NCBI RefSeq assembly: GCF_900636965.1
Contig: NZ_LR134331.1
Span: 2,480,001 to 2,544,000 of the forward strand
Direction of reading: 5' to 3'
DNA length: 64,000 nucleotides
DNA from: Lacticaseibacillus rhamnosus
GTDB lineage: Bacteria > Bacillota > Bacilli > Lactobacillales > Lactobacillaceae
Part shown: one piece after another, positions 1,129 through 7,510 of the stretch
Layout of the letters: every line of letters begins with the position of its first letter
How positions within the stretch are numbered: the stretch's first letter is position 1
The notes under the pieces: model-generated
Databases searched by the model: none
Told to the model about the DNA's origin: nothing
The model's input: only the letters and a program-made list of their open reading frames with translations
Translations under genes and position numbers: made by a program

Positions 1129-1149
1129 AAATCGTAATGATTACGTTTT
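1129..1149 (+). promoter_or_regulatory. Zur box upstream of zinc-type binding protein gene
   Basis: The core CGTAAT-G-ATTACG (1133-1145) with flanking AAAT and TTTT sits 18 bases before the start codon at 1168 and overlaps the expected promoter/5' end. It diverges from the box at 988 by about 140 bases, so one region controls both directions. Confidence 0.88.
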
Positions 1150-1167: not shown

Positions 1168-2085
1168 ATGATGAAGCGATTACTTGCAGGTATCAGTGTC
1201 GCACTCTTAGCAGTTTTTGCAGTCGCGTGTGGCAATAATGGTGCCGCAAAGCAATCCAGCGCTAGCAACGATAAAATTCAGGTAGTGGCTAGCGTCGATT
1301 TTTATGGTGAGGTTGCCAAAGCAGTTGGCGGTGATAAGGTCGCGGTGCAGTCGGTGATTAACAATCCGGCTGTTGATCCGCATGATTATGAGCCAACCAC
1401 CAAAGTCGGCAAAGCAGTTGCAACATCCGATTTCGTCATTGCCAGTGGCATCGGCTATGACGGCTGGATGGACAAAGTCGTTAAATCGGAAAACAAATCG
1501 AAAAGCTACTTAAGAGTTGCCGATGATCTGATGAACAAAAAGGAAGGCGACAACGAACATATCTGGTATGATCCGCGGACAATGCCAAAACTGGCAAATG
1601 CGCTGGCGGATAAATTTGCCAAAAAAGACCCGGCCAATAAAGCCAAGTTCAAAGCCAACGCAAAGAAATACATCGCTTCATTAGATGACCTCAATGCACT
1701 TGTTAATAAACTCAAATCAAACGCAAACGGTCAACTTGTTGACGTCTCGGAACCAGTCTTCGGTTATGCCTTAGATTACCTAGGCTACAAGATCAACGAC
1801 GCCCACTTTTCTAACTCAACCGAAGAAGGTACCGATTACAGCGCCAAGGATATTCATGGTATTGAAACCGACATCAAGGAAAAGAAAATCGCCTTTTTCG
1901 TTAACAACATTCAAGCGACATCTAAAACAGTTTCACGCCTTGTTAAACTTGCCAAGCAAAATAACGTGCCAGTTTTGAATGTCACCGAAACACTTCCTAA
2001 AGGCAAAAACTATCGCACATGGATGATGAGCCAATACCAACAACTCGAAAAGATCCAAAATCAAGCAACAACAAGCAGTAAGTAA
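1168..2085 (+). CDS. Zinc-type ABC transporter substrate-binding lipoprotein
   Basis: 305 residues. Signal peptide MMKRLLAGISVALLAVF followed by lipobox AVAC gives an N-acyl-cysteine anchor. The body is the cluster 9 (TroA/ZnuA) fold: candidate metal ligands are His in DPHDYEPT (about residue 73) and His in EHIWYDP, with an EEGTDYSAKD segment near residue 215. There is no His-rich zinc loop. GGAAGGAAGCGGG precedes tandem ATGs, so the start may be 1168 or 1171. A Zur box upstream makes zinc the likely substrate (inference). No permease or ATPase is adjacent; it probably feeds a transporter encoded elsewhere. It is a close paralogue of the protein at 3983. Confidence 0.88.
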   Translation: MMKRLLAGISVALLAVFAVACGNNGAAKQSSASNDKIQVVASVDFYGEVAKAVGGDKVAVQSVINNPAVDPHDYEPTTKVGKAVATSDFVIASGIGYDGWMDKVVKSENKSKSYLRVADDLMNKKEGDNEHIWYDPRTMPKLANALADKFAKKDPANKAKFKANAKKYIASLDDLNALVNKLKSNANGQLVDVSEPVFGYALDYLGYKINDAHFSNSTEEGTDYSAKDIHGIETDIKEKKIAFFVNNIQATSKTVSRLVKLAKQNNVPVLNVTETLPKGKNYRTWMMSQYQQLEKIQNQATTSSK

Positions 2086-2095
2086 TCAAACTCGT

Positions 2096-2232
2096 CTGAC
2101 CACAAGGGTTTGTTACACTTCCCTTTACTTCGGTATCACTCACCCTGTACCGAAAAAATCCATCAATGGTTTAGCATTGATGACCCAACAAACCATAAGT
2201 TCGAGTCAAAAGCATCGAACAGTCTGGTCAGG
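2096..2232 (+). ncRNA. Five-stem structured RNA downstream of the binding protein gene
   Basis: Complementary arms fold into one nested architecture. P1 pairs CTGACCA (2096-2102) with TGGTCAG (2225-2231). P2 pairs GGTTTGTT (2107-2114) with AACAAACC (2187-2194). P3 pairs TTCGGTA (2129-2135) with TACCGAA (2148-2154). P4 pairs CATCAATG (2161-2168) with CATTGATG (2175-2182). P5 pairs GTTCGA (2199-2204) with TCGAAC (2215-2220). P2 encloses P3 and P4; P1 encloses P2 and P5. All arms are perfect and an intrinsic terminator follows at once. It begins 10 bases after the stop at 2085, so it is either a 3'-UTR RNA or an sRNA with its promoter inside the gene. I do not recognise the family. Confidence 0.65.
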
Positions 2233-2234
2233 AA

Positions 2235-2260
2235 AAGTCCGCAAATTGCGGACTTTTTTT
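2235..2260 (+). terminator. Intrinsic terminator ending the structured RNA
   Basis: AAGTCCGCAA-ATTGCGGACTT followed by a run of T residues (2254-2260). It directly abuts P1 of the structured RNA and serves the transcript of the binding protein gene. Confidence 0.9.
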
Positions 2261-2357: not shown

Positions 2358-3005
2358 ATGAGTATGGCAAATGTGATGATTCTAGGAGCACACGGCCAAA
2401 TTGCGACCTTGGTGCGCCACCGCTTGCTAAAAGAAACTCAGCATCATCTCAACTTGTTTTTACGCCATGCCAAGCGCATCACTGATGTTGACCGCCAACG
2501 AGAAACGGTTTACGACGGTGATGTCACTGATACGGACAAACTGACAAAAGCAATGAGCGGTAGTGATCTTGTTTACGCCAACTTAGGGAACTCAGGGATT
2601 GAGGATCAAGCCAAGTCGGTCGTCAAAGCGATGGATGCCAATCACATCAAACGCTTAATTTGGATTTCAACACTTGGTATTTACGATGAAGTGCCAGGTG
2701 CATTTGGTCGCTGGAACCATAAGATGTTAGACGGCGGTTACCTTGAAACCTATGCTGCAGCGGCTAAAGTCATCGAAAATTCCGACTTAGCCTACACCAT
2801 TATTCGCCCTGCTTGGCTATCCAATAAAGCCATTGTAAGTTATGAACTCACGCAAAAAGGGGAACCCTTCAAAGGCACAGAAGTCTCCCGAAGTAGTATT
2901 GCTGATCTGGTTGTTAACTTAATCAATCATCCGCATCAACACATCGGTGAATCGCTTGGCGTTGACCAGCCGCATACGCAAGGCGATAAACCTTCCTTCT
3001 ATTAA
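2358..3005 (+). CDS. NAD(P)-binding Rossmann-fold protein (atypical SDR)
   Basis: 215 residues. The N-terminus VMILGAHGQIATLV is a GxxGxxx dinucleotide-binding loop. Later segments LIWISTLGIYDEVPG, AKVIENSDLAYTIIRPAWL and SRSSIADLVVNLI are typical of NAD(P)H-binding, NmrA/epimerase-like SDR_a5 proteins that lack the YxxxK catalytic pair. Tandem starts at 2358 and 2364 follow AAAGGAAG. Substrate cannot be predicted. Single gene, bounded by a repeat upstream and a bidirectional terminator downstream. Confidence 0.85.
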   Translation: MSMANVMILGAHGQIATLVRHRLLKETQHHLNLFLRHAKRITDVDRQRETVYDGDVTDTDKLTKAMSGSDLVYANLGNSGIEDQAKSVVKAMDANHIKRLIWISTLGIYDEVPGAFGRWNHKMLDGGYLETYAAAAKVIENSDLAYTIIRPAWLSNKAIVSYELTQKGEPFKGTEVSRSSIADLVVNLINHPHQHIGESLGVDQPHTQGDKPSFY

Positions 3006-3982: not shown

Positions 3983-4885
3983 ATGTTAAAACGGTTATTA
4001 ACAGTCATCAGTCTGCTACTACTAACAACAGTTGTTACCGCATGCAATACGAATACCAAATCATCAGGAAATCATGAAAAGATCCAAGTCGTCGCAACCG
4101 TTGATTTTTATGGCGAAGTTGCCAAAGCGGTTGGCGGCAAGCAAGTACAAGTCACGTCCATTATCGACAATCCTGCCATTGATCCGCATGACTATGAACC
4201 AACCACCCAAGTCGGCAAACAAGTGGCCACAGCTGATTTAATCATCGCTAACGGCATCGGTTATGATGGCTGGATGGATAAGCTGATCAAGTCGGAAAAC
4301 AAATCCAAACAGTATTTACGCGTTGCTGATGATCTGATGGCTAAACATGAAGGCGATAATGAACACATCTGGTATGATCCACGCACCATGCCTAAACTTG
4401 CCAATGCGTTAGCCAGCAAATTTGCCAAAGAAAAGCCGGCAAAAAAGGCGATTTTTAAAGCCAATGCCAAGAAATACATCGCCTCGCTTAACTCCCTCAA
4501 TGCCTTAATTACCAAGCTCAAGCAAAATGCTCATGGTCAAAAAGTCGATGTGTCCGAACCCGTCTTCGGCTATGCCCTCAATTATCTGGGCTACAAAGTC
4601 AACAACCGTCATTTTGCCCAGGCAACTGAAGAAGGTACTGATTACAGCGCCAAAGATATCCATGCGATTGAAACCGACATCAAAGAAAAGAAAATCGCCT
4701 TCTTCGTCAACAATAGCCAAGCCAGTTCAAAAACCATCGATAGTTTCATTAAGCTAGCCAAGGAAAACAAGGTACCTGTTCTGAACGTCACCGAGACACT
4801 GCCTAAAGGAAAAAACTACCGCACTTGGATGACTGATCAATATCGACAACTGGAAAAAATCCAAAATCAGACGGACACTAAGTAA
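3983..4885 (+). CDS. Zinc-type ABC transporter substrate-binding lipoprotein, paralogue
   Basis: 300 residues from the ATG at 3983, chosen for the GAGGAG ribosome site 7 bases upstream; 28 further in-frame residues upstream have no site and no signal character. Signal MLKRLLTVISLLLLTTVV with lipobox TAC. It shares long identical stretches with the 1168 protein (VDFYGEVAKAVGG, NEHIWYDPRTMPKLANAL, EEGTDYSAKDIH, LNVTETLPKGKNYRTWM), so it is a duplicate with the same metal-ligand positions. Also without adjacent permease or ATPase, and behind a weaker Zur-like box, suggesting a different derepression threshold (inference). Confidence 0.88.
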   Translation: MLKRLLTVISLLLLTTVVTACNTNTKSSGNHEKIQVVATVDFYGEVAKAVGGKQVQVTSIIDNPAIDPHDYEPTTQVGKQVATADLIIANGIGYDGWMDKLIKSENKSKQYLRVADDLMAKHEGDNEHIWYDPRTMPKLANALASKFAKEKPAKKAIFKANAKKYIASLNSLNALITKLKQNAHGQKVDVSEPVFGYALNYLGYKVNNRHFAQATEEGTDYSAKDIHAIETDIKEKKIAFFVNNSQASSKTIDSFIKLAKENKVPVLNVTETLPKGKNYRTWMTDQYRQLEKIQNQTDTK

Positions 4886-6755: not shown

Positions 6756-7106
6756 TCATATAAGTAATGAAACCCTTAACCCCGCTACCATCGCCACCAC
6801 CCCCAGCAACACACTCCCCAAAAAATACCCAACAAACACGCGCCACTGCCGATTACGAATCAAAATAAACGCGTCTGCCATAAACGTTGAAAAAGTTGTA
6901 AAGCCACCGCAAAATCCAGTCAGCAACAACACCCGAAAAGCAGAAAACGCGGGCAAGCCAGCTAAAAATCCCGCCAAAAATGCCCCAAGCACATTAATCA
7001 TCATTGTGGCAACCGGTTTTCCGGGCCACAGCATCCGCCCTAACACCGTCAGCAAATACCGACAAACAGCTCCCACACCAGCACCAATTCCGACCAAAAT
7101 TACCAT
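6756..7106 (-). CDS. crcB: Fluoride channel CrcB/Fluc, second subunit
   Basis: 116 residues, four hydrophobic helices. It carries the Fluc signature GFCGGFTTFSTFMAD around residue 65 (the phenylalanine box and TTFST polar track) and an early ARG-type region GAGVGAVCRYLL. Fluc proteins export fluoride passively as dual-topology dimers. When two genes are adjacent, as here, they usually encode opposite-facing halves of a heterodimer. Its start overlaps the upstream gene by 7 bases and AAAGGATAAAAGCTC supplies a ribosome site. Confidence 0.93.
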   Translation of the reverse strand: MVILVGIGAGVGAVCRYLLTVLGRMLWPGKPVATMMINVLGAFLAGFLAGLPAFSAFRVLLLTGFCGGFTTFSTFMADAFILIRNRQWRVFVGYFLGSVLLGVVAMVAGLRVSLLI

Positions 7107-7510
7107 GAGCTTTTATCCTTTCGTGGTAGCCATTTTGCAACAAAGAATCCGCCAGCTGCTGCCAGCAGTCCGCCGATAAGATTTAAGCTTAGCAACACGA
7201 ACGCATAGACCGCATGCGTTGCCACCAAATTAACAAAGTCCAGCATAAGCGTCGAAAAGGTCGTAAACCCACCGATTACCCCTGTTCCAATGCCTAACAA
7301 CAGCCACTCTGGCAAGTCAAATCTCATGTCTAGCCCATAAGTCGTAAACGCCAGCAGAAAACTGCCCAATAAGTTCACAATTGTCGTACCCACCATGGTT
7401 TGACCGTCCATCGTGACTGAACTAAGGCCATATCGCATGACCCCGCCGAAAAAACCACCGACAAATACTGCCAGCACCCAACTAAGCCTTACTTGTTCCC
7501 GTTGTTGCAT
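7100..7510 (-). CDS. crcB: Fluoride channel CrcB/Fluc, first subunit
   Basis: 136 residues, four helices. Signature GTGVIGGFTTFSTLMLD near residue 75, Asn in TTIVNLLGSF in helix 2, and GGFFGGVMRYGLSS near the N-terminus. Ribosome site GAAAGGAGC before ATG at 7510. It leads the two-gene operon directly below the fluoride riboswitch, which assigns the substrate with high confidence. Confidence 0.94.
   Translation of the reverse strand: MQQREQVRLSWVLAVFVGGFFGGVMRYGLSSVTMDGQTMVGTTIVNLLGSFLLAFTTYGLDMRFDLPEWLLLGIGTGVIGGFTTFSTLMLDFVNLVATHAVYAFVLLSLNLIGGLLAAAGGFFVAKWLPRKDKSSW

Follow-up and report, generated by a model that had tools for sequence, protein, structure and literature searches.

In Staphylococcus aureus, the small RNA RsaC stems from the 3′ end of a metal-importer mRNA (mntABC) whose transcription is shut down by a metal-loaded repressor, and its distribution is lineage-restricted (PMC9438474, PMC9294342). 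These features liken it to the RNA described here, whereas the two differ in size and metal, RsaC measuring 584-1116 nt and answering to manganese and MntR while the Lacticaseibacillus rhamnosus RNA measures about 165 nt and is associated with a Zur-type box; the comparison of their sequences was through the Rfam scan reported below. Release of RsaC by RNase III and its repression of sodA have been shown experimentally, whereas comparable steps in the L. rhamnosus RNA are putative. In RsaG, a hairpin protects the RNA from 5′-3′ decay (PMC9438474). RsaX20, also of S. aureus, shares the link to zinc, as its gene carries a Zur motif and is co-expressed with the Zur regulon, but it is a small RNA gene behind its own Zur motif rather than the 3′ end of a zinc-importer mRNA (PMC5826253). 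Finally, s-SodF of Streptomyces coelicolor is likewise processed from a 3′ UTR under a Fur-family regulator, Nur (PMC9438474, PMC9294342), but is nickel-linked, has a superoxide dismutase parent gene and belongs to a different group of organisms. For Zur or AdcR/ZitR, no such RNA is listed in a 2022 review of small RNAs that respond to metals, which expects further metal-sparing RNAs, zinc included (PMC9294342).

Here we analyse an RNA encoded behind a zinc-binding lipoprotein gene in a 64,000-nucleotide stretch of the L. rhamnosus genome (the window, to which positions refer unless another record is named). In the L. casei group, the adcA/znuA mRNA ends in this RNA, which is non-coding, structured and conserved.

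Fold and compensatory base changes

Minimum free energy and centroid folds of positions 2096-2260 agree, and both contain the five helices and the terminator of the original prediction (Table 1), with P1 enclosing P2 and P5, and P2 in turn enclosing P3 and P4, in two nested junctions. The segment reaches -58 kcal/mol compared with -31.0 ± 3.3 kcal/mol for shuffled sequences (z = -8.1), and the RNA body without the terminator reaches -40.5 kcal/mol (z = -5.35); in both cases none of 200 shuffles was as stable. Unpaired letters beside P2 and within the P5 loop (ACCAUA and CAA.A.CA) are invariant. Read on the minus strand, P4 is followed by ATTTTTT (2160-2183) and scores as terminator-like, with a T run that is not kept in L. 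chiayiensis or L. zeae.

Table 1. Coordinates and supporting observations for the RNA, its helices and its parent gene.
Feature	Position	Strand	Observation
Five-helix structured RNA, P1-P5	2096-2231	+	Fold z -5.35; 7 doubly compensated pairs; covariance-model match 142.9 bits
P1	2096-2102/2225-2231	+	Two pairs changed on both sides (count depends on alignment placement)
P2	2107-2114/2187-2194	+	Two pairs changed on both sides
P2-P3 junction, unpaired, C/U-rich	2115-2128	+	No more than one G in any of the four compared species; possible seed region (inferred)
P3 hairpin	2129-2136/2147-2154	+	One pair changed on both sides; loop rich in C in all four compared species
P4 hairpin	2161-2168/2175-2182	+	Only one-sided, pairing-preserving changes; some species lack two of the pairs; weakest-supported helix
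P5 hairpin	2199-2204/2215-2220	+	GUCAAAAGCA loop; two pairs changed on both sides
Intrinsic terminator	2232-2260 (2232-2258 in the fold)	+	12-pair stem and T run
Zinc-binding lipoprotein gene, adcA/znuA type	1168-2085	+	Pfam PF01297 ZnuA, E 6.6e-50; parent mRNA of the RNA
Zur-type operator before the zinc-binding-protein gene	1132-1145	+	Exact palindrome TCGTAATGATTACG

The RNA forms a conserved structured family whose common fold is backed by compensatory base changes. The alignment comprises five distinct casei-group sequences that represent only three independent lineages, which limits its power, and 93.7% of its pair cells are canonical, a value to which L. rhamnosus contributes canonical pairs by construction because the helices were defined on its fold. 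Seven pairs have changed on both sides and still pair, two each in P1, P2 and P5, one in P3 and none in P4, the figure for P1 being dependent on placement, as its 3′ side was aligned with N padding. To gauge these counts, we compared them with simulations in which the observed number and type of substitutions were scattered over the paired sites. Between L. rhamnosus and the genome G023, which is probably L. paracasei, seven doubly compensated pairs stand against 2.3 expected (P about 5e-5) and one broken pair against 6.7 expected (P about 0.004). Between L. rhamnosus and either L. chiayiensis or L. zeae, five doubly compensated pairs stand against 1.4 expected (P about 0.002), with four broken. 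The common fold is the free minimum in L. rhamnosus and G023; in L. chiayiensis and L. zeae it lies within 1 kcal/mol of the minimum, and their unconstrained folds are partly different, with a stability that exceeds that of shuffled sequences only modestly (z about -1.7). The original prediction had staked itself on compensatory changes in homologues and on close relatives with the gene keeping the arms, and both expectations are borne out, no arm having been lost in the five casei-group genomes.

Gene setting, distribution and neighbouring sequence

The zinc-binding-protein gene is preceded by an exact Zur-type box and its stop codon ends at 2085, leaving ten bases before P1 begins at 2096, both as originally described. 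The box lies 36 bases ahead of the start codon and is kept in all five orthologues with at most one end base changed, and the adcA/znuA unit is thereby a predicted member of the Zur regulon, with a putative Zur-type operator at its promoter. A second exact box (991-1004) occupies the same shared intergenic region towards a minus-strand S14-type ribosomal-protein gene (497-766), and the L. rhamnosus genome holds three exact sites in all. The third, outside the window (G000:C1:26260-26273), has an ABC-transporter ATPase gene on one side and an ammonium-transporter-like gene on the other. Farther out from the RNA, ABC-transporter genes are found on the minus strand, and the gene downstream (2358-3005) encodes an NAD(P)H-binding protein and is preceded by a conserved TACAAT-type promoter-like element. 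Elsewhere in the window, a fluoride riboswitch (Rfam RF01734, 7579-7633, minus strand) lies a short way upstream of two successive small genes for membrane proteins (7100-7510 and 6756-7106, likewise minus strand), which resemble CrcB/FluC fluoride channels.

Homologues were located via the host gene and a covariance model. The orthologous protein is 87-89% identical in four other casei-group genomes, namely L. chiayiensis, L. zeae, G023 and G005, the last of which is probably L. casei, and in all five genomes the RNA begins within about 15 bases of the stop codon and is followed by a terminator. By contrast, no match to the RNA was found behind the gene in other Lacticaseibacillus species, whose proteins are 40-60% identical, and several of these have a plain terminator or the next gene directly after the stop codon. 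The covariance model finds one copy in the L. rhamnosus genome, in agreement with the earlier observation that nothing similar follows the paralogue at 3983-4885. Across 398 genomes of the family its matches are confined to the casei-group five and to three members of other genera, besides two weak hits (G221 and G414, E about 0.05) that we took as chance, the one in G221 falling inside an apparent coding region. Among 395 genomes of the order the model returned nothing further that was convincing (a weak match in G057 has E 0.02), a DNA search of phage and plasmid records gave no match, and a DNA search of 60 relatives yielded short fragments only, mostly at the terminator.

The three genomes of other genera, which include records of Liquorilactobacillus oeni and L. 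mali, carry a 1.76-kb paracasei-like fragment (L094:6736-8497; L040; L041) that is 98.7% identical to G023. It contains the 3′ part of adcA, the RNA and the NAD(P)H-binding gene, and lies beside replication-initiator, transposase or resolvase-type genes. The fragment seems to have been acquired recently by horizontal transfer; contamination is a less likely source in G169, where it sits in a 2.03-Mb contig.

While the RNA body is conserved, the sequences of the terminator stems show no relation from species to species, and even the close pair L. zeae and G005 have different ones; the DNA behind the terminator differs as well. G023 has GAAGAAATTC as its terminator loop and the copies that look transferred have GAATTTCTTC (L097 versus L040), the loop segment being inverted between the stem arms. 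An interspersed intergenic repeat of about 120 bp has 81 matches in the L. rhamnosus genome, many of them near full length and some in tandem at a spacing of about 122 bp (e.g., C1 136459, 136585, 136707). A remnant of it (2262-2312) stands right behind the terminator, outside the RNA, and in L. casei and L. zeae a fuller copy follows the terminator directly (L010:2618-2740).

Candidate functions of the RNA

A simple consensus scan of the last 200 bases of the parent gene recovered no promoter for the RNA shared by the four species, and a small-protein hypothesis was discarded, no reading frame being conserved in all species. Lacking a promoter or reading frame that the species have in common, the RNA should be produced together with the mRNA of the zinc gene, as its 3′ end, and therefore when Zur is off. 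Of the two known origins of 3′-UTR-derived small RNAs, a promoter inside the parent gene and processing, the second would then apply. The placement of the RNA is that of a 3′-UTR-derived small RNA, encoded at the 3′ end of an mRNA whose terminator it shares, in the same layout in five species. Together with the Zur-type box, this 3′-UTR position makes a processed low-zinc 3′-UTR small RNA the best-supported reading, and the precedents for release set by RsaC and RsaG support it as the leading one. Its expression, zinc control, processing and targets are what we infer, and we regard the reading as evenly poised between right and wrong.

We propose that at low zinc Zur would leave its operator and the mRNA would be made. 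The coding part would then decay before a 3′ fragment of about 165 nt, which P1 closes and the terminator caps, either because P1 and the junction halt 5′-3′ decay or through an endonuclease cut close to the stop codon. Once free, this fragment would work as a small regulatory RNA whose C/U-rich P2-P3 junction and C-rich P3 loop are presented to the ribosome-binding sites of mRNA targets, as part of a zinc-sparing or zinc-uptake programme. Gram-positive small RNAs that act by pairing with ribosome-binding sites typically carry C/U-rich unpaired segments, and two such segments (2115-2128 and the P3 loop) are present in all four species compared. Against the small-RNA reading, the sequence of these possible seed regions varies from species to species, and the compact closed fold could simply protect the mRNA end. 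A more specific proposal, in which the RNA would be the zinc counterpart of RsaC and RyhB, co-made as a 3′-UTR small RNA with a Zur-controlled importer and shutting down dispensable zinc-using proteins, strikes us as possible though rather doubtful. Scanning two genomes for the P3-loop complement common to two species, we found no zinc-related target conserved in both; the start site of a zinc-ribbon protein was matched only in the L. rhamnosus genome. Among the plus-strand matches, start sites shared by both species belong to lipoprotein-type solute-binding, small membrane, inositol-monophosphatase-like and uncharacterised proteins (named by eye), and we claim none of them as a target.

The chief rival to the low-zinc small RNA is a cis-acting 3′-UTR structure with no target elsewhere, which would protect its own mRNA, tune its decay or insulate the terminator; we consider it a serious contender but on balance unlikely. 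It accords with the fixed place of the RNA in all five species, flanked directly by stop codon and terminator, with the conservation of helices rather than possible seed segments and with the lack of a target in the P3-loop-complement scan of two genomes. A terminator alone normally suffices, however, other Lacticaseibacillus species and the paralogue manage without the RNA, and two nested junctions with invariant unpaired letters exceed the needs of a decay barrier. Those same letters, next to P2 and in the P5 loop, might instead mark a binding site for a protein such as an RNA chaperone, an RNase or a regulator, with the RNA serving as a sponge or localisation signal, an idea that we judge improbable in view of its single copy per genome and of the fact that we recognised no known protein motif in it.

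The original prediction had also raised the possibility of a ligand-sensing regulator, which finds little support here. A multi-branched fold that leads directly into a terminator is indeed seen in many riboswitches, and the same gene lies downstream in the species inspected, so that a metal or metabolite sensor could in principle control termination and hence the NAD(P)H-binding gene. Yet the terminator is strong and its arms change freely between species with no matching change in the RNA, from which it follows that there is no conserved anti-terminator; comparison of sequences between species likewise found no conserved, mutually exclusive pairing of aptamer and terminator. Moreover, a conserved TACAAT-type element precedes the downstream gene as its own, and the repeat parts that gene from the RNA in L. 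casei and L. zeae, which speaks against attenuation, leaving a riboswitch-like role quite improbable. A chance fold of untranslated sequence or mobile-repeat debris, which the adjoining repeat remnant might suggest, is scarcely credible given the stability of the fold without its terminator, the single copy per genome and the position of the repeat outside the RNA, and is largely refuted by the doubly compensated pairs.

Relation to reported small RNAs

The RNA had been described as unassigned, and in an Rfam scan of the whole window no family reached its gathering score at the locus. A permissive scan gave weak, sub-threshold leader-type matches, the best being Trp_leader with 23.5 bits against a cut-off of 41 (E 0.01), mainly via the terminator. 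The locus thus is a real, casei-group-specific and undescribed structured 3′-UTR RNA.

A transcript from it may nevertheless have been detected before. A survey of L. paracasei BL23 counted 307 small RNAs, the majority of them lacking an Rfam match. One of the 307, sLCB2545+, is a plus-strand, Northern-verified small RNA that was classed as intergenic and whose detection was in MRS, a rich medium (Mickute et al. 2021, PMC8220740). In the numbering of that survey, tmRNA, RNase P and SRP RNA stand at 1161, 1642 and 2400 (PMC8220740); in G023 they lie at 1038, 1482 and 2310 kb, and our RNA at 2458 kb. Interpolation from these three landmarks gives an expected BL23 position of about 2536-2560, a range that includes sLCB2545+, on the assumptions that the small RNA names are kilobase coordinates and that synteny holds. 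The small RNA sLCB2545+ may therefore be the BL23 copy of the RNA, but it is listed as intergenic (PMC8220740), in contrast to the 3′-UTR position in L. rhamnosus. Were the two identical, rich-medium detection and the intergenic class (PMC8220740) would not be what a purely low-zinc 3′-UTR product predicts. The transcript would then have been detected before, though in the accessible part of the survey it is not described as a conserved structured or zinc-linked RNA (PMC8220740).

The RNA represents a new structured family and a possible addition to Rfam. If it proves to be the zinc counterpart of RsaC and RyhB, it would rank with the earliest Zur-linked small RNAs whose origin is defined. The locus thus offers a small, evolutionarily supported candidate for a zinc-linked small RNA in food and probiotic bacteria, and a concrete handle on whether zinc starvation has its own RyhB.
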